A DNA stretch of 38,602 bases from Nitrospinaceae bacterium (lineage in GTDB: Bacteria; Nitrospinota; Nitrospinia; Nitrospinales; VA-1), in the NCBI GenBank assembly GCA_029937655.1, contig JAPYPK010000003.1, positions 1 to 38,602 on the forward strand, written 5' to 3'. Position 1 is the stretch's first letter, and each line of letters starts with the position of its first letter. Below are positions 9,501 through 37,421 of this stretch, one piece after another. The translations under genes and the position numbers were made by a program. The notes beneath the pieces were generated by a model. It worked only from the letters and a program-made list of their open reading frames with translations. It had not been told where the DNA came from and searched no databases.

Positions 9501-9755
9501 AAAGAGGGTTCTCCCCATATTGTCGAAAAAATTAAAAGTGGAGAAATTCAATTTGTAGTCAACACAACATTTGGTGAGCAATCAATCAAAGATTCTTATT
9601 CATTGCGGCGCGCAGCACTTAACACTAATATCCCCTATTACACAACGATAGCTGGAGCACTAGCTCTGCTCAAAGGTTTGCAAGCGCTTAAGGATAACGA
9701 TATGACCGTTACCTCTCTACAGGAATTTAGGTTAGAGCAGGGCAAAAACAATTAG
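6501..9755 (+). CDS. carB: Carbamoyl-phosphate synthase large subunit
   Basis: 1084 aa with two duplicated ATP-grasp halves ([44 protein letters not shown]). Confidence 0.99.
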
Positions 9756-10849
9756 TATGACAAGGACGATAGGCCCTTGTAGTCCCCCCAAATGATATCG
9801 GGTTGAAATATATTTTTTTTCTTCTCTCGATGAGAGTTTCTTTTGGTCCAAGGAATTATTTTTGCCTCTATTTTTTTTGAACTTCTGTTTTTAGGAACAA
9901 CTAAATCACCAGGGGTTAAATTCACTCCCGCGACTATTTGCGCTTTCGAGAATCGCCCTTGAACCTCGCTGACCTTTATGATGCCTTTCCGGGAATACCT
10001 AGCACCCAAGTCAACTTTAGCTACTGGATCATTAAATTCAGGTTCTAACGAAAAAACGGTGAATACATCTTGTACATTAACACCATTTGCTTTCCCTAAA
10101 TTTATAATAGTACTATTATTTTTATGATCGATCGATATCAAATCACCCTCAAGCGGAACAGTATTTAAGGCGTTATAAATAAATACCTGTACTTGATCAT
10201 TCAAATTCCACAGAGCATTCCCCATTGAATGATCTTTAAAGGTATCTGATTGATAGCTAATATTCTGGACATTTATATCAAAAGGTTTTCGTCCTACACT
10301 TGAGTTAACTGTGAATATTTTTTTTACAAACGAGCGCCCCGTATGCAAATTCTGTAACTCTATGGATACCTGTATGAGCGCCAGCTCTTTATGAAGGCGT
10401 GCTTCTTTCTTTGTGTGGTTTTTTTTAAGCGGATTAGTATCTGGATTAAATATTAAAATATTACCTCGAACTTTGTACTGACTTAATGGAGCCTTCGTCA
10501 AAGAAGTAAAACTTGTCACATTGAGTTGGCTATCCTTATTAGTTTTTTTATCTTTCTTTGCTTTATTCCCCAATTGACTTTTAAACTTATTTGTTACATT
10601 TGATTCTATTTTTTTTAAGCGGACCACTTGAAAGACACCTAAATTAGTAAGACTGTTTTCAAGCATCGAGGAAAAAAAGATACCTGGTTTGAATTGATAC
10701 TCCCAGTCCACAGGATTAGAAAATGACTCCACTGTTATTTTTTTTATAAATTTTGCCTCTACATAGCTCTCAGAGAACAATAGAAAAGGAAAAAAAAGAA
10801 AATACATTAAATATGGTTTTGATAATATTTTTTTAGTTAAAGTACCCAT
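9752..10849 (-). CDS. Secreted protein with CsgG/FlgT-like C-terminal region
   Basis: Signal peptide; pattern ...[22 protein letters not shown]...[33 protein letters not shown] resembles FlgT C-terminal/CsgG-associated domains. Confidence 0.6.
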
Positions 10850-10967
10850 ATCATTAAATATCGACAGTTAGGCATAAAATCTTCATATAAATATTCGTTT
10901 TATTATAATAAAATCTTTGTTTTTCCAAATTATAGCCTTCTATACTTGCTTCCAATCGTCTTGACCT

Positions 10968-11759
10968 ATGGATCATAGAAAAGTACAATCACTCGCTATG
11001 AAAAAACTACTATATCTTATTATTTTTTCTTTATTATTTCTCCCAAACTATCAAGCACAGGCTAAGTCATCACCAGAGGGTATGGTTCTCATCAAAAAGG
11101 GTTGTTTCATGATGGGCACCAACAAAATACACGACTACTTGGCTTTTGACCCAGATGTCCGAGAACGCCCAAATGATCGAGAACGCCCCGTTCACAAGGT
11201 GTGCCTCGATGCTTTTTATATGGACACCTACGAAACTACACAAGATAAATGGAGCAAGGTGAACCTTATAAATAATTCCGTATACAAAGCCCCTAATATT
11301 GCTGTCAATCAAATTGAATGGGGAGATGCAAATGATTATTGTCAGACGCTCGGAAACCGCCTCCCTACGGAAGCTGAGTGGGAATATGCAGCTCGTGCAG
11401 GCACCACGACGGAGTATCCTTGGGGTGATAAAATGGACCGCAATTATGCTTGGTATGGTGGAAACTCAGGCCATACACATCACCCAGCGGGAACTAGAAA
11501 ACCCAACCCATGGGGATTGTATGACATGTTCGGAGGCGTCTGGGAGTGGGTTAGTGATTGGTATGGCGAGTTCTATTATAAAACCAGCCCACTAAAAAAT
11601 CCTAAAGGTCCATCAAATATTTTGAGCTGGCATGTAATCAGAGGGGGGTCATGGATTGATGACAAACAATTCGTTCGTACCACTATCCGATATCCCGGGT
11701 TAGCTGATAATACGGATGATTTCTGGGTTGGATTCCGCTGTGCCAGAGATTTAAATTAA
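10968..11759 (+). CDS. SUMF1/formylglycine-generating-enzyme family protein
   Basis: GNRLPTEAEWEYAARAG, NPWGLYDMFGGVWEWVSDWYG, RGGSW...VGFRCAR; N-terminal signal peptide. Confidence 0.9.
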   Translation: MDHRKVQSLAMKKLLYLIIFSLLFLPNYQAQAKSSPEGMVLIKKGCFMMGTNKIHDYLAFDPDVRERPNDRERPVHKVCLDAFYMDTYETTQDKWSKVNLINNSVYKAPNIAVNQIEWGDANDYCQTLGNRLPTEAEWEYAARAGTTTEYPWGDKMDRNYAWYGGNSGHTHHPAGTRKPNPWGLYDMFGGVWEWVSDWYGEFYYKTSPLKNPKGPSNILSWHVIRGGSWIDDKQFVRTTIRYPGLADNTDDFWVGFRCARDLN

Positions 11760-11793
11760 TCAATATGCCAGATCAAAAATCTCTCTACATGTA

Positions 11794-12438
11794 ATGACTT
11801 TTGTTTTTGATTCTCGCACAACCAATAGGTTATACCAAAAACTTAGATCAAGTATTCCTGTCGCTACAACAGAGTTGAGCTACAGTAATCATTTCGAACT
11901 ACTAATAGCAGTAATGCTTACTGCTCAGGCAACAGATAAAATCGTAAATGAAGTAACCCCATCGCTTTTTAAAAAGTGCCCTAGCCCCAAAAGCTTTATT
12001 TTGTACGGCGAAAAAAAACTAGCTCGCTTGATAAAAAGAATCGGTTTAGCGCCTACCAAAGCAAAAAATATTATTCGCACGTGTCAAATATTATTAAAAA
12101 ATCACAATGGCGTTATACCTAAAACTCGAGAGGAGTTAGTAGAACTTCCAGGTGTTGGTAGAAAAACGGCAAATGTTGTTTTAAATGAAGCATTTGGAAT
12201 ACCTACTATAGCCGTCGACACACATGTGTTTAGAGTTGCCAATCGCACAGGATTAGCCAAGGGAAAGACTGTCCTTGAAACTGAAAAAAAATTAATAGAA
12301 GTAACTCCGGAGAAATGGAAAAAAGACGCGCACCATTATCTTATTCTTCATGGACGTTATGTTTGCAAAGCAAAAAACTTTAAATGCTCCAACTGCTCCA
12401 TCATTAAAGAGTGTCAGTTTAAAAATAAAACTAAATAG
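11794..12438 (+). CDS. nth: Endonuclease III
   Basis: HhH motif LPGVGRKTANVVLNEAFG...VDTHVFRVANR; C-terminal [4Fe-4S] cysteines CKAKNFKCSNCSIIKEC. Confidence 0.96.
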   Translation: MTFVFDSRTTNRLYQKLRSSIPVATTELSYSNHFELLIAVMLTAQATDKIVNEVTPSLFKKCPSPKSFILYGEKKLARLIKRIGLAPTKAKNIIRTCQILLKNHNGVIPKTREELVELPGVGRKTANVVLNEAFGIPTIAVDTHVFRVANRTGLAKGKTVLETEKKLIEVTPEKWKKDAHHYLILHGRYVCKAKNFKCSNCSIIKECQFKNKTK

Positions 12439-12440
12439 AA

Positions 12441-13205
12441 ATGTCCACCCAAAAAAAAAGAAGTTATGCAGATCTTGTAAAACGATTAAGCAAAACACTA
12501 GATAATACCGTTCAAATTTTTACCCTTGACCATATTAAATATTCAAATAATAAATATCCCTTCCAAAAAATAATATTAGGAGTTCATAATCCGAGGCGAG
12601 TTCTAATTTCAGCAGGAATTCATGGGGATGAACCGGCCGGAATTGAAACAATATGCTCTTTTTTAGAAAATAGTAGGTACAAAAAACATTTGGATCAATG
12701 GGAAATCACTATACTCCCATGTATTAATCCTTATGGTTTTGAAAATGACACCCGTGAAAACCATGAGAGCAAAGATTTAAACCGCTTATTCAAGGTTCAC
12801 AACCCCCCACTTGAAGTAAAATTAGCTAAATCGATCATTGAGCCCTCATATTTTGACATGACAATAGAATTACATGAGGATTGTGATAGCCATGGATATT
12901 ACTTGTTCCAAAAATCTAACACACCTAATGGACTTGAAATTGGAGTTAAAATTATCGAAGCGCTGAAAGGAGTTATTTCAATTAATTCAGATAAAACTAT
13001 TGAGAACATGCCTGCAGAAAAAGGAATTATACATAGAATAAAAGACATCAATCAGATGGAATGGTGGCCTATGGCTGGATATTCGCTTTCAATGAAAGCA
13101 GTCCATTGCTTAACCCTTGAAACTCCCACCATGCTACCTATGGACACACGTGTACAAGCGCACCTCTTGGCCATCGATCAAGCATTAATGTGTAATCATC
13201 AATAA
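12441..13205 (+). CDS. M14-type zinc carboxypeptidase / succinylglutamate desuccinylase-aspartoacylase-like
   Basis: Zinc motif SAGIHGDEPAGIE, INPYGFEND, DMTIELHED, LTLETPT. Confidence 0.75.
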   Translation: MSTQKKRSYADLVKRLSKTLDNTVQIFTLDHIKYSNNKYPFQKIILGVHNPRRVLISAGIHGDEPAGIETICSFLENSRYKKHLDQWEITILPCINPYGFENDTRENHESKDLNRLFKVHNPPLEVKLAKSIIEPSYFDMTIELHEDCDSHGYYLFQKSNTPNGLEIGVKIIEALKGVISINSDKTIENMPAEKGIIHRIKDINQMEWWPMAGYSLSMKAVHCLTLETPTMLPMDTRVQAHLLAIDQALMCNHQ

Positions 13206-13254
13206 GTGTGCTGCCGTTTTATCACAATCAAAGGCGGTAATAAAATTAGGGGAC

Positions 13255-15444
13255 TTAACTTAACTTGAGGGGAGATATAATAGGAACAACTATAGGCTCT
13301 CCAACGGGGATAGAATTGATATCCTTCCTTGGATTATAACTAGCAAGTAACCAGAAAGGGATAGCGTATATTTCGTTACATAATTCCCAAGCGGTTTCAC
13401 CCTTGGCCATATTTCGAACTAAAAGCTTCTCAATCATAAAATTATTAAAAAAATCTTCCTGTATAGCTTTATGATATTCCTGTCTTCGTTCTTCAAAAAG
13501 ATCTGGTTCCACCTTTAGGAATGGAACTTTAATTTCCGCATGGACATTTAACTGAGACCTCTTATTCATCCGATTAAGTTTTAATATTTTTTTAACCGGT
13601 AATTTGCTCCACTCCGCATAGTGACTTAACGTTTCATCAAAGTCCACCACGATGACTCCGACTTGAGATGAGTTCATAGTATCGTTACCAGTAAAGGAAA
13701 CTGGGCGAAATGCTGGCCTACCATGATTAGCTTTATCTACAGATTTAATATGAGCAAGTTTTACTTCAAAGGTTTGATTTGTCCGTTTTTCCGAGTTATT
13801 TTTTTTCGGATCAGGTTTGAAAGTATTTCGTTTGACAACTTTAGGTCTGGATGCAATCTGCATTCGATCATTTAATGGTATTTCTCCCGAAGGAACGTTT
13901 AACAACTGACCGCGAATAATCTGATCCGGATATTTAATTCGATTTAACCTGAGTAATTCGTTTACTTCTGTATCAAATCGATTAGCAATTTTCGTTAAAT
14001 TATCATTGCGACGTACTTTATATGTACTTAATTCACCACTATATTTTTTCTGATATTGTTTTACCATACGAACTGAAGGGTAAGCAGAACCTCCCCTCCC
14101 AGGCAAACGAAGTACCTGTCCTATATATATTTTATTCCTATGAGTTAGATTATTATATGAGTATAACTTATTGACTGAAGTTCTAAATCGCGATGCAATT
14201 ACCGACAGGGTATCCCCTCGGCGAACGGTATACCATTTTGAGCGAATCTGGTTTTTGTGACGCTCACTAGCCGGGATAATCTGATAAAAACTTCTTTGTT
14301 GAGAAAGTTTATTTTGAGGAGCTTGAAAGGTGAAATTTCGCGGAATTCGCTTCTGACCAGATATAACTGGCCTTCTAAGAGCGGGATTATATTTTGCTAT
14401 TTCATCTCTTGTCATGTTCAGGCTAGGCATAACACTATTTATGTGAACAAAATCTTTAAAAACAACGGAAGATAAATTCAAAGGTTGTTCAAATTTAGCA
14501 TTAGGAAAATATTTATTCTTGTTTTTCACAACATGCAGTGCCGCTAAAAATTCCGCATAGAAATTTTTAGAAGCAAAACCAAAACTACGGCTTCTGTAGC
14601 CATTGATCACATCTACGATGTTGGCTCCATATCTTTTTTTAGCATTTTTCATTCCCTGAGTACCATGATTATACGCTGTAATAGCAAGTGGCCAGCTTTG
14701 CAGAGCTTTAAAGTTTGATTTTAAAAGTTTTGCTCCAGCAATAGTAGATAGAATTGGATCTCTACGCTCATCAACATCATAACCAACATTCATAAACAAA
14801 CGCCCAGTTCCGCGAGTAAACTGCCAAATCCCAGCCGCCCCGGCACTGGAGTACGCATTTACTTGAAACGAAGATTCGACGTGCGGGAGTACCGTTAATT
14901 CTAAAGGAAGTTTAGCTTCAGCGAAAATTTGATTAATTCTGTCTTTATACTTACCGGAACGTTCAATACCAGATTTAAAACGGTCACTCTGGCCGATTTG
15001 AACCCTTATTCTCCGGGAGGCTTTTCTAAAATTTGACTTAACTAAATTGTAAATTCTTTTAGGTTCACCTTTTAATGACTGCTTTTTTTTGGTTCTGGAT
15101 ATTTTTAGTAATAATTTTTTATACTTTTTTTTAACCAGACCCAATCTATACTCCCTTGACCTTCTCGACATATTTGATCCATTTTTGATATAGAGAACCT
15201 CATAAATTATGCCAAGGTTATCCATGTCATGAACTACGTAATGATCTGTGGAGTATTCAGAATAGATCTTTTTCCAAAATTTAACTTTCGACTCAAGTCC
15301 TACAGGAGTGGAAAAATCATAATGATGTAATGTGTGCACTTCTCTATTAAGGTTTGCATGCACATAACCTTCAGAAAAGAAATGTATAATTAAAAAAAGA
15401 AACAATATCTTTATAGATTTAGTGAACAAATTATTATCTTTCAA
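13255..15444 (-). CDS. Membrane-bound lytic murein transglycosylase D-like, SLT domain plus LysM repeats
   Basis: SLT motif LPHVESSFQVNAYSSAGAAGIWQFTRGTGRLF; ITAYNHGTQGM; LysM repeats YTVRRGDTLSVIASRF and YKVRRNDNLTKIANRF. Confidence 0.93.
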   Translation of the reverse strand: MKDNNLFTKSIKILFLFLIIHFFSEGYVHANLNREVHTLHHYDFSTPVGLESKVKFWKKIYSEYSTDHYVVHDMDNLGIIYEVLYIKNGSNMSRRSREYRLGLVKKKYKKLLLKISRTKKKQSLKGEPKRIYNLVKSNFRKASRRIRVQIGQSDRFKSGIERSGKYKDRINQIFAEAKLPLELTVLPHVESSFQVNAYSSAGAAGIWQFTRGTGRLFMNVGYDVDERRDPILSTIAGAKLLKSNFKALQSWPLAITAYNHGTQGMKNAKKRYGANIVDVINGYRSRSFGFASKNFYAEFLAALHVVKNKNKYFPNAKFEQPLNLSSVVFKDFVHINSVMPSLNMTRDEIAKYNPALRRPVISGQKRIPRNFTFQAPQNKLSQQRSFYQIIPASERHKNQIRSKWYTVRRGDTLSVIASRFRTSVNKLYSYNNLTHRNKIYIGQVLRLPGRGGSAYPSVRMVKQYQKKYSGELSTYKVRRNDNLTKIANRFDTEVNELLRLNRIKYPDQIIRGQLLNVPSGEIPLNDRMQIASRPKVVKRNTFKPDPKKNNSEKRTNQTFEVKLAHIKSVDKANHGRPAFRPVSFTGNDTMNSSQVGVIVVDFDETLSHYAEWSKLPVKKILKLNRMNKRSQLNVHAEIKVPFLKVEPDLFEERRQEYHKAIQEDFFNNFMIEKLLVRNMAKGETAWELCNEIYAIPFWLLASYNPRKDINSIPVGEPIVVPIISPLKLS

Positions 15445-15629
15445 TTGCAGGTAATTAGTATTTTTAAGGGACAGTATAATGGACTAATTCAAAAGGGAGT
15501 TAAATTACTACTAGAAAAACAACCTAACTTCTATATTTTCAAAAGGCTAACAAAGCTGCCACTGCCAGTCAAGGTAAATCCAGCACCAGAATTAAACCTT
15601 TGAAAAATCAATACGTGATAAAATTAAAC

Positions 15630-15920
15630 TTATTTATTTTTAGACGAATACTCACTATTAAGTCTATATACAAAGGACAATAACTCGGCTACTACCTGGT
15701 ATAAAGATGCCGGAATTTCACGATTTAAATCAACTTTCGAGAGTAGGTGGACTAAGTCCGGATCTTCCTTTATTGGAACATTATTTTCTTTTGCCAAAGC
15801 AATAATTTTATCAGCAATTAGTCCCTTACCCTTTGCGGTAACAACGGGAGATTTGTTAACTCTATTGTCGTACCGCAGCGACACTGCAGAACGATCTGGT
15901 TTTTTTTTGAAATCAATCAT
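15630..15920 (-). CDS. Stand-alone FlhB C-terminal-domain-like protein
   Basis: AVSLRYDNRVNKSPVVTAKGKGLIADKIIALAKENNVPIKEDPDLVHLLSKVDLNREIPASLYQVVAELLSFVYRL, pattern of FlhB cytoplasmic domain. Confidence 0.88.
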   Translation of the reverse strand: MIDFKKKPDRSAVSLRYDNRVNKSPVVTAKGKGLIADKIIALAKENNVPIKEDPDLVHLLSKVDLNREIPASLYQVVAELLSFVYRLNSEYSSKNK

Positions 15921-17476
15921 GTTGTCAAATCCACCAATCTATCAGAATCACATGTTAATAACTGGTCCAATTGTTTTTCCAATTTTCTATCAATAGTACC
16001 AACAACACAACATGATGCGCTAACCTCAAAGTCCAAACTACTTAAGCGAGAACAAAAATCTTTAAGATTACCGTCTATAAATTTAGCTACATTTTCACTC
16101 TCAACATCAATTTTAATTGAAATAGATTCCTTGTTCATTTTGGCATCAACACGAATATTTCCGAGCACTGATAATTCCAACAGAAAAACAAGAAGCACGT
16201 CATCATTATTTTTATCCTCTTTCCCTTTACCCTCATCCTCAGGACGTCTCAAATAAAGGTTAACTGTCTTACCAACCATAAAAGGATCAGGAATTTGTAA
16301 TAGGATAGGTTGATTTTCTTGACGTGCAAATTGATTCGTCAATTGCTGCAATTCAATATTTTCAACTGCCCGAAGTAAAACTTTAATTACCTCTGTAAAT
16401 TGACGCCTCTGACTAGCCGAAATATCCTTTTCTACACTCTTTGCCTCTAAGACCTCCAACAACTTTGTGAGTTGACCCTTCAAGTCGTTTCTCACATTAA
16501 ATGGAATTTCAAAAGGGACTTTTCCCTGAAAAATATTTTTCACTTTTGGCTCATAATTAATGCCAGATAAATCTATTTGTTCTTTTAGTTGGGTACTGCC
16601 TTGACTTAGAAAATTTTGTACCGTGGGTGGAGTTTTTACAAAATTCAAAGTTTTGGCCAAACGCCAAACTAAATCGGTTTTAGTACTGAGATTCTTAATA
16701 ACCTCAGATGAATTAACCAAAATATCTAGTCTTTCAAGCATTACTCCAAACGGTTCTTTAAAAGGTAATAAAGATTTAATTCTAAAAATATCAACCAGCT
16801 TAGACGTATTATCCGGTTGAACTACAAGCCTAAAACCATCACGATGTGGGGTGACTACTAAAGAAACATTTTCCCCGGTTTTAGGTGGTAGTGAAGAAAA
16901 ATAGGCAGTTATCAATTTATTTTCAAAATTAACAACTATATTATTATTTCCAGAAATATCCACAACGGTAGCTTTTATTGATTGACCTGATGTGAGATTC
17001 ATATTGTCGATTTCACGTGCCGACAAATCTCTAGAAAAAATATTACTGGATTTTGTTAGGGTGAGATTAGGGTTAGAATCCAAAATTGATTTATTATCGA
17101 ATACTTGATTTGATGGAATATTTGAAAAATTTTTGCCAGATATTTTGGTTCTATCCTCAATGCCATGTGATGGGGAAGTTGGATGAGAGTCTATTAATTT
17201 TATCTGTAATGGCAATTCAGAAGAAGGTCTATATACTTGAGCAGAAAAAGAATGCCCAGGAGTTAAAGGATGTCGTGTTTCAACCATTATCCGCTTATTA
17301 AAAATTTTTAGAATAGCTTTATTTTTCTCGGGCAATGATTCTAAAACGGTAGCCTGGAACTGTGCCCCCGATTTAAGAAATTTATTTAAATAAGGGAGAG
17401 TATCGAGAGAACTATTGACCAATGTCAATTTCAATGAGTTTTCAGATAAACCTTCAGGAATCAATTCAACCTCCAA
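15917..17476 (-). CDS. FliK-like flagellar hook-length control protein
   Basis: C-terminal Flg_hook-like region (FLLELSVLGNIRVDAKMNKESISIKIDVES), overlaps flhB-like gene, adjacent to fliL. Confidence 0.7.
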   Translation of the reverse strand: MEVELIPEGLSENSLKLTLVNSSLDTLPYLNKFLKSGAQFQATVLESLPEKNKAILKIFNKRIMVETRHPLTPGHSFSAQVYRPSSELPLQIKLIDSHPTSPSHGIEDRTKISGKNFSNIPSNQVFDNKSILDSNPNLTLTKSSNIFSRDLSAREIDNMNLTSGQSIKATVVDISGNNNIVVNFENKLITAYFSSLPPKTGENVSLVVTPHRDGFRLVVQPDNTSKLVDIFRIKSLLPFKEPFGVMLERLDILVNSSEVIKNLSTKTDLVWRLAKTLNFVKTPPTVQNFLSQGSTQLKEQIDLSGINYEPKVKNIFQGKVPFEIPFNVRNDLKGQLTKLLEVLEAKSVEKDISASQRRQFTEVIKVLLRAVENIELQQLTNQFARQENQPILLQIPDPFMVGKTVNLYLRRPEDEGKGKEDKNNDDVLLVFLLELSVLGNIRVDAKMNKESISIKIDVESENVAKFIDGNLKDFCSRLSSLDFEVSASCCVVGTIDRKLEKQLDQLLTCDSDRLVDLTT

Positions 17477-17536
17477 TTAAAAAACAAAGGTTTGAGTATT
17501 GCAAAAACAAAAGAAATTATAGTTAACGATTTTTTT

Positions 17537-17878
17537 TTAAACGGTAAGGTTGATGTTCTGCCCTTGGTGAGAATTACCTTTAAAGACATTTTCTTGGGTA
17601 GAATTTGGGAGGGCCTTTTCAAGATCATTATTTTGCTTAGATTTATTGCGAAGCCTAATATCGCGTCTTCGTTTTGCCTCAGGGCTAACTGAGTCTGGGG
17701 CTTCTATTTTCTCAGGGTCCTGAACTTCAATTTGTTTCAATTCATTTACAGCAACTTGTTCCTTCTGAATTTGCTGAGCAGTAGTTGACGGAAGCTGCTG
17801 CATCGTCTGCTGCAACTTTTCAGCATGCGTTCCCATTTGAAGAGTTTGCTGAGTATTTACAATTTCTATAGTTGGCAT
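17537..17878 (-). CDS. Small Gln/Lys-rich protein in flagellar block
   Basis: 113-aa ORF in the same direction between fliK-like and fliL; low complexity; no recognised domain. Confidence 0.6.
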   Translation of the reverse strand: MPTIEIVNTQQTLQMGTHAEKLQQTMQQLPSTTAQQIQKEQVAVNELKQIEVQDPEKIEAPDSVSPEAKRRRDIRLRNKSKQNNDLEKALPNSTQENVFKGNSHQGQNINLTV

Positions 17879-18000
17879 GGTTTAAAGCTATCGATTAACA
17901 AATAAGAGACATTAATCAATATAGCTCAACAACCTCCATTGTCAAGCGAACCAATACAAGCAACAAGTTAGTTATTAACTTTTACGGCAAAAGAAAAAGT

Positions 18001-18588
18001 CTACTTAACTATAAATTCAGAAAAATAGACCTCTTGAACAACACCCGTCCCAACAGGTAAAAGTTCGTTAACCTTAGTAATAATCCTTTTTTTAACTCGT
18101 TCCTTAGTGGACTCTATTTTTGTGGTGAGATTTTTATAGCTTTGCCGAAGAAGAATATTATAAATTCTTTTTCGAATACTGGGCAGGTTTTTAGAGATCT
18201 CCCCCCCTAACCCTGCATTGCTCATGCTAAAACTAGGGGTAACCAGAAGGAAACGACCTGATTCATCCTTACCCTTAAGCTTGATAGGAAAGAAAAATGC
18301 CTTGAGTGGATACATGTGTACTTTGTCAAACTTTGGTTGTACTAATTTACTGGCAACATCATCGCCCTCACCTAAAGCGCCTTCTGTTTCTAAATCAACC
18401 CCCTCTTCCGTCACAACATCACTTTTTGGCTCATCTCCTGAAAGAAAATAATACGCAGCGCCACCAATAAGTAAAAGAAGAAGCAAAACACCGCCACCGA
18501 CCATAATCATTAATTTTTTATCGGATTTAAGCTTTGCAATCAGGCTCGGTTCACTAGTATCTGATTCAGTTTTATCGTCTTCGGCCAT
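18001..18588 (-). CDS. fliL: Flagellar basal body-associated protein FliL
   Basis: Single N-terminal TM (LMIMVGGGVLLLLLLIGGAAYYFLS), FliL C-terminal pattern ending VQEVYFSEFIVK. Confidence 0.85.
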   Translation of the reverse strand: MAEDDKTESDTSEPSLIAKLKSDKKLMIMVGGGVLLLLLLIGGAAYYFLSGDEPKSDVVTEEGVDLETEGALGEGDDVASKLVQPKFDKVHMYPLKAFFFPIKLKGKDESGRFLLVTPSFSMSNAGLGGEISKNLPSIRKRIYNILLRQSYKNLTTKIESTKERVKKRIITKVNELLPVGTGVVQEVYFSEFIVK

Positions 18589-25786: not shown

Positions 25787-26734
25787 TTGATGAATCAACA
25801 AAGTATTAGTAAAACTGCAGTACTAGACGGAGTCACTCTAACTTTAAGTAAACCAGACACAACTAAACCTGAATGGATTGGTCAAAGTGAAGTTTTAAAG
25901 CAAGTCTTAGCGTGCTGGATGGTTATATCAGATAAGGACCTCCCATTATCTCCTAGAATCATTGGTATGCCCGGAATCGGGAAAACCACTTTAGGAATGG
26001 TTGCAGCTTTAGAAAGAAAACAACCACTTTATATATATCAATGCACAAGTGATACACGACCAGAAGATTTAATTGTCACTCCTGTTTTGGCTGAATCAGG
26101 GAAAATTTCTTACCACGCATCACCATTAGTGACAGCAATGATTAGCGGAGGAATCTGCATACTGGATGAAGGAAATCGAATGAACGAAAAAAGCTGGGCT
26201 TCTCTAGCTCCTCTTCTTGATCACAGGCGCTATGTTGAGTCGATCATTGCCGGACTTAGGATAAAAGCCCACAATGATTTTCGTGCTTGTGTCACGATGA
26301 ATCATGATGAGTCAACATTTGAAATTCCCGATTACATATTATCAAGACTTCAACCTACCTTGTCATTGAATATGCCTAATACTGAAGATGAGATGGCCAT
26401 CTTAAAATATCACCTTCCATTTGCTGAAGAAGAATTACTCGAAATGACCGTTAACTTCTTACAAAAGTCTCATCAACTAGACCTTGAATTCTCTCCCAGG
26501 GACGGTTTACATATATTGCAATACGCGATGAAAAGGTTGATCCAAGACAAAGATCATCCAATAGCAAAAGATATGATTTGGCAAGAATCCATTCAAAAGG
26601 TTCTTGGGGACGACGCACTAGATTTAGATGTAATGGCAGAGAAGAAAAATCGCGCCTTAGGTGGAGCACAATTACCGCAAGGACTGGGTGATTTTTTTTT
26701 CGATGAAGATAGCCCAATTCATCCTGATCGATAA
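25787..26734 (+). CDS. MoxR-family AAA+ ATPase
   Basis: Walker [12 protein letters not shown], Walker [13 protein letters not shown], sensor-1 ACVTMNHDE; likely start ATG 25790. Confidence 0.88.
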
Positions 26735-26739
26735 CAATA

Positions 26740-28566
26740 ATGGGTATCTTTTATCTCAGTAAAAAAATTCGATTTTTACCAGTAATACATGGCAGTGCCA
26801 GTTTCACTCGTATTATAAGAGACCGCTTATTATCATCTCCAACTGACTGTTTAGCAGTAGGCCTTCCTCCAGAGTTTCAAACAACGGTGAATGAGGGGAT
26901 CAATCACCTGCCCTTAATAACTCTGTGCTCTCAGAAAGAATCATCGGGTTCCTATAATTATGTCCCTATAGATCCTTGCCAACCCGTTATTATGGGCCTC
27001 CGCATCGCTTCGCAAGAAGGAATCCCTAGAAAGTTCATAGATTATAGTTGTGATGACTATGAACCAAGAAAAATAAACTTCCCTGACTCATACGCCTTAA
27101 GGCATATGTCTTATGAAAAGTTTTGCGCCACTCTTTTACTTTCCATTAAACGCCCTAAAGCTGACACGCTTCATGACAAAAGAGCACGGTGGATGGGATA
27201 TCAGCTTCATCAGCTAGAAATGGATTTTAGGAATATAACTGTCATCTGTTCGATTCTAGACTGGCCCTGGATAAAAGAAGCTTATGATGACAGAAAACCA
27301 TACGATAAAATATTTTCATCTTTCAACAATCCTAAAATATATGGGGTTGAAAAAGAAACACTCTTTTTTGCACTTGCGGAATTTCCTTACATAACTTATC
27401 TCAATGAGGTATATCGGCAACAAATAAAATCTGACAAAGAAGTTGTGGTTGATGGAATTAAAGAAATTCTAATAAAAGCTCGAGATATCTTCACTAAAAA
27501 ACATAAACTACGATTTCACAATCTCACATCACAATCTTTTCAAATATACCTACAGTACGTAAGAAATTTAACATTAATAGAAAGCCGCCTAACACCTGAT
27601 CTGTATACTTTAATAACAACTGCAAAACAATTCAGTGGCGACCCTTTCGCAATTGCTGTTCTTGAAGCGGCCAGAGCGTATCCTTTTCAAGACCTTAAAC
27701 ATACTAATCTCGAACCGTTAGCACTTGGAATAGATAAAGCCATAGACAGTGAAAATAACGCTATTAACATGAAAAATCGCCTATCAGAAAATCAAACAGA
27801 ATGGCGTGAAATCAACCTAAAACCAGAACCTGGCATAAAAAAACAAACTCAATGGAAACACAATTGGAATCCATATGGCCAATGCTCCTGGCCACCAGAA
27901 GATGATAAAATAGAAAGCTTTAATACTCATGTTCGAGAACAATCTAAATTACTTTTGAGCACTGACCTCGCAAGGTCCGAGAAGTTTACTTCCTCCACAA
28001 AAGACGGTGTAGATATGAGAGAAACACTTCGTCATTGGCACGAAGGCGATATCTACGTTAAAGAAATACCCCCCTCACGGGGACGTGTCGAAATCGTTGT
28101 TTTTATTTTTGACACAGAACCTAATCAAAATAAATATCAATGGTGTCAAACTTGGTATGCCGAACATAATGAAGAGTCAACATTATGTTTTTTTGCAACA
28201 AATTACATGGATGATATGATCGGTCCTGGAGTGGGTCGTGCTACATATGGCGGATGCATGATGATCTATCCACCTAGACCAATACCTGACATCTGGAAAG
28301 ACCCTAGAATTCATGTAGGAAAAACTTTAGAAGAAAAATTATTAGAAGCAGCTTTTTTTCATTCGCAAGAAAAACATATAACAGTGGTCACACCATGCCT
28401 CCCAAAGTCAAACTGGCGAAAACTTTCTCGAAAGTATCACAAAAGTATTATCCACATTCCTTTGAAACGTTTCTCTAATCAAACCATCGAAAAAGTTCGA
28501 AGATTTCATGTCCTCAATGGAAAACAAATTAGATCTTTTGCAAATCATTTTATTCAAGATTTATAG
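26740..28566 (+). CDS. Uncharacterised 608-aa protein encoded with MoxR ATPase; N-terminal part loosely DUF5682/TraB-ChaN-like
   Basis: 5-nt gap after moxR-like gene. N-terminus FLPVIHGSASFTRIIRDRLL...CLAVGLPPEF...IASQEGIPRKFIDYS resembles the 'H...LL...VLIEGP...A...GVPVRFID' layout of DUF5682. Distinct C-terminal region GDIYVKEIPPSRGRVEIVVFIFD...ESTLCFFATNYMDDMIGPGVGRATYGGCMMIYPPRPIPD. Confidence 0.85.
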   Translation: MGIFYLSKKIRFLPVIHGSASFTRIIRDRLLSSPTDCLAVGLPPEFQTTVNEGINHLPLITLCSQKESSGSYNYVPIDPCQPVIMGLRIASQEGIPRKFIDYSCDDYEPRKINFPDSYALRHMSYEKFCATLLLSIKRPKADTLHDKRARWMGYQLHQLEMDFRNITVICSILDWPWIKEAYDDRKPYDKIFSSFNNPKIYGVEKETLFFALAEFPYITYLNEVYRQQIKSDKEVVVDGIKEILIKARDIFTKKHKLRFHNLTSQSFQIYLQYVRNLTLIESRLTPDLYTLITTAKQFSGDPFAIAVLEAARAYPFQDLKHTNLEPLALGIDKAIDSENNAINMKNRLSENQTEWREINLKPEPGIKKQTQWKHNWNPYGQCSWPPEDDKIESFNTHVREQSKLLLSTDLARSEKFTSSTKDGVDMRETLRHWHEGDIYVKEIPPSRGRVEIVVFIFDTEPNQNKYQWCQTWYAEHNEESTLCFFATNYMDDMIGPGVGRATYGGCMMIYPPRPIPDIWKDPRIHVGKTLEEKLLEAAFFHSQEKHITVVTPCLPKSNWRKLSRKYHKSIIHIPLKRFSNQTIEKVRRFHVLNGKQIRSFANHFIQDL

Positions 28567-36614: not shown

Positions 36615-37421
36615 ATGAAATTTTTTTTAATCATAGGTGGAACAGGGGTTATGGGAACATCGGCTATAAGAGCAATAAGGGAACACTTTGACCAAAGCAG
36701 TGTGATTATTGCTAACTGGTACGGCAAAGAATCTCCTGGTTTTAAAATTGAAGGTGCTGACAACACTATTTTTGGTGACATAAATGACCTTAGTTGCAGA
36801 GAGCAAATTAAATCCTTTAATAATGGAAAGTATGACTACATGTTTTATGCAACAGCTCTTGGAGACGTAGGCATTCCAGTAAAGGATGCAACTAAGGAGC
36901 AAATTGATCGCTCTAACAAGCTTTCGTTTAATCCAATTCCTCAACTTGAAAATGAGCTTGATATCTCCACCATAGTTGCTTATTCGACATTCTACACAAT
37001 ACGACATCAATTAAGCACTTACGGCGCTATGGGACACTCAAAAGAAAATATAGAAAAATGGACAGTGACCTCAGATGGATCATCGAAACATGCTTGCATC
37101 CGTGCCGGCCTTTTTGAATCTCCCTCATCAAGAGGAATCAAACTACTTCTCAGAAAAACATCTAAAAACCTAGATAATTTAAAGGACCCCCTTCTCCGTT
37201 CCTATTTCGAAAATACCCCTTCTAGCGAAGGGATTAAAAAATTTGAAGAAGGGATCTTCACAGAAGAGAAAGAAGCGTATGGAGATTGTCGAACTAAGAA
37301 GGAAGACCTGATGAGAGCACACCTTGAGTTATTCAAATCAGACAACCCAACTTTTATAAATGTTTGCGGAAAAAAGATATGGCCAAGCAAAGAACCTCTC
37401 TTACTCAAGCAGTTTATCTAA
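36615..37421 (+). CDS. Rossmann-fold (SDR/enoyl-reductase-like) protein
   Basis: N-terminal FLIIGGTGVMGTSAIRAI dinucleotide-binding motif; DYMFYATALGDVG; exact family not recognised. Confidence 0.65.
   Translation: MKFFLIIGGTGVMGTSAIRAIREHFDQSSVIIANWYGKESPGFKIEGADNTIFGDINDLSCREQIKSFNNGKYDYMFYATALGDVGIPVKDATKEQIDRSNKLSFNPIPQLENELDISTIVAYSTFYTIRHQLSTYGAMGHSKENIEKWTVTSDGSSKHACIRAGLFESPSSRGIKLLLRKTSKNLDNLKDPLLRSYFENTPSSEGIKKFEEGIFTEEKEAYGDCRTKKEDLMRAHLELFKSDNPTFINVCGKKIWPSKEPLLLKQFI

Follow-up and report, generated by a model that had tools for sequence, protein, structure and literature searches.

Two adjacent genes in a draft Nitrospinaceae genome encode an AAA+ ATPase of the MoxR superfamily and a 608-aa partner protein which, as judged from alignments and profile searches, represents a real, unnamed family spread over five bacterial phyla. 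The well-studied MoxR ATPases act with vWA proteins, and insert metals or rebuild complexes. What is new in the gene pair described here is that the vWA partner is replaced; a MoxR-type ATPase plus a dedicated partner is an arrangement already known. The window, by which we mean the whole stretch of 38,602 nucleotides that was analysed, is contig C10 (1-38602) of an 84%-complete genome assembly with a size of 1.67 Mb.

Both genes, and all the features given below for the window, lie on the + strand. The ATPase gene (25790..26734, 314 aa) is separated by a measured gap of 5 nt from the partner gene (26740..28566, 608 aa), which is the spacing reported in the initial annotation of this DNA. The ATPase ORF can also be read from a TTG at 25787 (25787-26734, 315 aa), but the ATG at 25790 is most likely its start codon, since a GGGGG Shine-Dalgarno-like run sits 4 nt 5' of it. 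That annotation had further described a MoxR-like ATPase with intact Walker motifs, and the description holds: Walker A is GMPGIGKT (25964..25987), Walker B is ICILDE (26153..26170) and the protein matches Pfam AAA_5 at E=7.6e-18. Its best sequence relatives in the PDB are Midasin, CbbQ and NorQ, and it is 31% identical to a NorQ of Phaeobacter over 190 aa. By these sequence matches it belongs to the CbbQ/NorQ/GvpN branch of the MoxR AAA+ superfamily, although it is not GvpN itself because it scores far below the GvpN equivalog cut-off. In BLAST comparisons E. coli YehL did not match it significantly, and the similarity to a DUF5682-linked ATPase reached E=0.002 at best, which places the protein outside the YehL-type ATPases as far as such comparisons can tell. 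The C-terminal tail of the ATPase (RALGxxxLPxGLGDFFFxxDxPLHPxR, 26651..26731), recognized from its conservation pattern, is a candidate docking peptide; this tail is near-invariant in the clade of the window, whereas the sister subfamily shows it weakly and the Neochlamydia and L139 copies lack it.

The lack of any confident family for the 608-aa protein was already suspected, and indeed no model in Pfam, NCBIfam or PADLOC scored above its cut-off and no PDB sequence matched. Matches to GrdX, Ribonuclease T2, CHASE and Malectin were weak, partial and different between members of the family, and were taken as chance. A scan of GTDB genomes with the protein recovered 48 loci in the Nitrospinota, Nitrospirota, Planctomycetota and Omnitrophota, at 36-86% identity across most of the length, and the same pair, again adjacent, is present on plasmid pS13 of Neochlamydia sp. 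S13, where a gene of the TtcA tRNA thiolation family precedes it (L093:6133-9836). In phylum scans the partner was present in 24 of 148 Nitrospirota genomes, 38 of 246 Planctomycetota genomes, 5 of the 14 genomes scanned around the Omnitrophota locus and 44 of 60 Nitrospinota genomes, the last count leaving out one genome whose sole match is a TraB protein. Across 62 diverse partner sequences 33 residues are invariant. No relatives were found among phages and viral contigs, and a viral origin is rejected on that account. The partner gene of the Rhodopirellula baltica BR-MGV assembly (L044:5923-7937) is split between two frames, which may mean that the copy is broken or that the sequence contains an error.

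The inheritance of the two genes is tightly coupled. Among the 246 Planctomycetota genomes, all 38 that bear the partner also bear the ATPase, two have the ATPase alone and 206 have neither (Fisher p ~1e-42, uncorrected for shared ancestry). In the two exceptions (G226 and G372) the partner was undetected, which may be due to assembly gaps or to a genuine loss. Ten Pirellulaceae-type genomes that were checked carry an ATPase of 63-66% identity that is unlinked to the partner, and several other planctomycete genomes also hold the two genes apart; because both are kept though unlinked in the former, the association does not stem from linkage. Among the Nitrospinota relatives the partner occurs in 42/42 ATPase-positive genomes, and in each of the two genomes with the partner only the contig breaks off on the side where the ATPase would lie. 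The pair is near-universal and single-copy in the Nitrospinaceae and relatives, one genome (G054) has it in two copies, and the two genes are adjacent in the Nitrospinota, Nitrospirota, Omnitrophota, Neochlamydia and most of the divergent planctomycetes. The ATPase lies directly upstream of the partner in 63 of the 107 copies examined, a count that takes in redundant and truncated loci. The survey of gene neighbourhoods that the initial annotation had proposed thus upholds its claim of a two-gene AAA+ unit, coupled by co-occurrence even where unlinked.

Other genes in the vicinity vary between lineages. By inspection, the neighbours of the pair in the window are siroheme-type and GlcD-type genes; flagellar-type genes lie farther away at 9752-18588 (FlgT-like, 9752-10849; FliK-like, 15917-17476; FliL, 18001-18588), as does a 268-aa ORF outside the Pfam families (36615-37421). 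A ligA-like gene follows the pair on the same strand in 24 loci of the Nitrospira type (for example L042 and L009; the count includes redundant loci), where a LysM-type protein and trp-type genes in divergent orientation lie ahead of the pair, an arrangement that the Nitrospinota do not share. The neighbours in the Pirellulaceae are a lipase-like gene and another MoxR. No neighbour is common to several phyla, and the adjacent genes were rejected as a clue to function.

The N-terminal ~200 residues of the partner (residues 1-205; 26740..27354) are assigned by profile comparison to the TIKI/TraB superfamily, close to TraB/PrgY and to DUF5682, with structural support from one match in one library. 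The hhalign probabilities for residues 1-230 were 96.8 to TraB and 96.9 to DUF5682, those for the divergent subfamily alone 97.8 and 97.0, and those for the clade of the window alone 86.9 and 81.9, whereas the controls (reversed, unrelated and 30 shuffled profiles) gave at most 1.4. When an AlphaFold2 model of the partner was searched against the viral structures of BFVD, the top match came from the TraB family (E=1.5e-3, prob 1.00) and the next had prob 0.15; no TIKI structure was found among the 50 best PDB matches of the model. The DUF5682/TraB-ChaN-like layout guessed at earlier for this end of the protein is thereby borne out. Membership in DUF5682 itself (PF18934, a model of 727 positions) is not indicated by the Pfam searches, since the best members of the family reached E=0.15 and 0.028, below the gathering score, and the latter match covers just the N-terminal 80 model positions. 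The profile of the partner family also matched a TraB protein encoded in this genome. An intact TraB/PrgY protein with a hydrophobic C-terminal half is encoded on its contig C158 (L088:4337-5530, - strand), where the gene adjoins a uvrB-like gene and is unlinked to the pair.

The TIKI enzymes, among which there are proteases and esterases, rely on a His-Glu pair together with another His and a basic residue that is conserved (PMC6254334), and the partner family is divided with respect to these positions. H17 (26788..26790), corresponding to the first catalytic-site His, is retained in 61/62 sequences, and R148 (27181..27183), at the position of the basic residue of the TIKI proteases (PMC6254334), in 62/62. 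The residue equivalent to the catalytic Glu (in a VEL motif in the other subfamily and in TraB/DUF5682) is G41 in the window (26860..26862); it is E in 18 of the 62 sequences and P, C, G or A in the others. The residue equivalent to the second His is D174 (27259..27261), in a position where 17 of the 18 E41 sequences have G171-x-x-H174 and where the clade of the window has D, E, Q, K or Y, or sometimes H without G171. These 18 sequences have E41, E85 and G171 together, plus R148, and 17 of them have both H17 and H174; the other 44, the window included, have neither E41 nor E85 and, bar one exception, no G171, while keeping H17 and R148. Five more Omnitrophota sequences fit the E41/E85/G171 pattern, three as complete and two as degenerate; the degenerate pair seem to be loci that the alignment already includes, which leaves three independent sequences. 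In a tree built from residues 262-608 alone, a single branch with a support of 99 separates the 44 degenerate sequences from the rest. Since TraB and DUF5682 both carry the complete motif, loss is the simpler direction, and the alignment and tree indicate a single loss of the catalytic Glu and second His, in the clade of the window. With the Glu and second His gone, and only H17 and R148 left of a site that is complete in the sister subfamily, the TIKI site of this clade is probably that of a pseudoenzyme, although a modified activity is possible given the conserved H17 and R148.

The remainder of the protein is without a recognizable relative. The AlphaFold2 model, computed from 61 sequences with one plasmid sequence left out, has a mean pLDDT of 91.4 and a pTM of 0.80. 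It shows a mostly helical middle region (residues 206-340; 27355..27759) followed by an alpha/beta region (residues 341-608; 27760..28563) in which pLDDT is mostly 88-97 outside of residues 411-450. In fold searches of the PDB and BFVD residues 341-608 had no significant match, and no PDB entry passed E=0.001 for the whole model; matches to SPARTA/SPARDA Argonaute subunits and to Irgb6 were rejected (E >0.06, TM ~0.1). The C-terminal half did not align with the DUF5682 or TraB profiles (hhalign prob 0.5 to DUF5682). The comparison of the two halves by structure prediction and profiles, which had been suggested as a check, therefore recognizes TIKI/TraB in the first and nothing in the second. 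This unmatched C-terminal half is the most conserved part of the partner by segment entropy, with 52 invariant residues in the clade of the window, versus 25 in residues 1-260. Within it, the KFTSSxKDGxDxRETLRHW segment (residues 411-445; 27970..28074) has a lower entropy than any other part of the protein and also the lowest model confidence (pLDDT blocks of 67-84); it might be a functional loop (a putative finger, lid or active loop) that takes on order only once a complex has formed or a ligand is bound. A second conserved core, WxxTWxAEHxEESTLxFxAT...GPGIxxxxYGGxxxxxPPR...W (residues 468-519; 28141..28296), contains E475, E479, S480, P496, G504, G505, P511 and W519, each invariant in 62/62; the distinct C-terminal core noticed in the initial annotation (about residues 436-520) lies within the stretch of the family that is most conserved.

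Neither a Pfam vWA domain nor a MIDAS-type motif was detected in the partner protein, including its C-terminus, where such a domain had been considered, and no MIDAS-type motif was found in the loci of the family by a pattern that recovered the control YehP and DUF5682-vWA fusions and missed one NorD. The absence of a vWA partner, claimed earlier for this locus, accordingly extends to the neighbourhoods of the pair. A search elsewhere in the genome located VWA_2 proteins on contigs C6 and C122, apart from the pair on C10, and C6 also carries a canonical MoxR. By these domain searches the pair is not a MoxR plus vWA two-component system. It resembles NorQ-NorD and CbbQ-CbbO in its ATPase family, size and two-gene layout, but differs from them in that its partner has, in place of the vWA domain of NorD and CbbO, the TIKI domain and the unmatched domain. 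It likewise resembles the TIKI/TraB/PrgY hydrolases in its N-terminal fold and, in one subfamily, in the order H...E...R...GxxH, and differs from them by a fused extension of 400 aa, the paired AAA+ gene and the catalytic degeneracy of the clade of the window.

The published account of NorQD (PMC13036017) describes how the vWA protein extends a finger into the pore of the ring and the ATPase strains a linker, whereby iron is inserted. We propose, by analogy with NorQD and as an evenly balanced proposition, that the pair is a vWA-free MoxR-type module, with the 608-aa protein as the adaptor that couples an AAA+ ring to its client. The AAA+ protein would form a NorQ/CbbQ-like ring driven by ATP, and the 608-aa protein, in the role held by the vWA proteins NorD, CbbO and CoxE in related systems, would bind both the ring and a dedicated client and pass the ATP-driven strain on to the latter. 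In the clade of the window the N-terminal domain would probably have turned from an ancestral hydrolase into a binding or scaffold pseudoenzyme, with the essential conserved work placed in the unmatched C-terminal region. We infer from the analogy a physical complex, a coupling to the ring and a remodelling of the client; co-inheritance of the pair is by itself no proof of a complex. The metalloprotein target offered in the initial annotation is a conjecture, and no conserved third gene lies nearby to point to the client.

The strongest rival to the adaptor reading is that the 608-aa protein is itself the client, its C-terminal region being a new-fold enzyme that the AAA+ ring would serve as activase or maturase, much as CbbQ acts as a rubisco activase/maturase-type ring. 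We consider this rather improbable, as the neighbouring genes give no clue to a substrate, but it draws strength from the failure of the region to match a known fold and from a dense set of invariant polar residues of a kind typical of an active site (E387, D388, E392, S419, D422, E475, E479, S480, H590 and R598, in 62/62). That the ring might instead feed or gate the TIKI active site, as in an ATP-gated hydrolase or protease, suits the subfamily with H17, E41, R148 and H174, and the enzymatic range of the superfamily (PMC6254334); it is unlikely, since the gene pair stayed conserved while the clade of the window did without the Glu and second His.

Two further alternatives would assimilate the pair to systems already described. 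The E. coli YehL-YehM(-YehP-YehQ) system consists of a MoxR ATPase, a DUF5682 protein, a vWA protein and a SWIM protein, and its first two genes are the nearest analogue in layout, in which a MoxR-superfamily ATPase gene directly precedes that of a protein whose N-terminal domain is of the TIKI type, although sequence comparison puts the ATPase here in a different branch. The DUF5682-like N-terminus and the shared gene order would suit a remote branch of this known, uncharacterised system, a reading made quite unlikely by an ATPase that is nearer NorQ, a C-terminal half unrelated to that of YehM, and the failure to find a vWA (YehP) or SWIM (YehQ) partner at the pair. The designation of an undescribed system in the initial annotation has to be qualified: the N-terminal superfamily is known, and MoxR plus DUF5682 pairs exist as yehL-yehM. 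In the planctomycete loci L073, L074, L075 and L077 a single ORF of ~1,240-1,290 aa starts with DUF5682 and adjoins a YehL-type ATPase; those of L073 and L074 end in a vWA-like MIDAS motif (DVSASM and DVSGSM) and apparently fuse the functions of YehM and YehP. A role in defence or conflict, after the manner of the MoxR-vWA ternary systems (VMAP, iSTAND etc.; Kaur et al. 2020, PMC7159879), we hold to be very unlikely. Such systems also combine a MoxR ATPase with a distinctive extra protein and occur in planctomycetes, and one copy of our pair is plasmid-borne, but the pair has no vWA component, variable effectors were not seen, the partner has no PADLOC match, relatives were not found in phages or viral contigs, and inheritance is like that of a core gene, in near-universal single copy in the Nitrospinaceae and relatives.

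A fuller version of the adaptor reading, which we put forward as possible though doubtful, is a MoxR-superfamily machine made of a TIKI-derived pseudoenzyme adaptor and a new-fold domain whose possibly catalytic activity has been kept across five phyla. If true, it would show that another protein can take over entirely from the vWA co-chaperone, and that a former hydrolase became, on a single occasion, a structural adaptor. As a pair without vWA, near-universal in the Nitrospinaceae and relatives and co-inherited across the planctomycetes, the two genes would point to another route for coupling an AAA+ ring to its client, and would put on the map a highly conserved domain of no assigned function. 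We found no mention of DUF5682 in the literature searched, and the pair may give a first evolutionary handle on the DUF5682 proteins.
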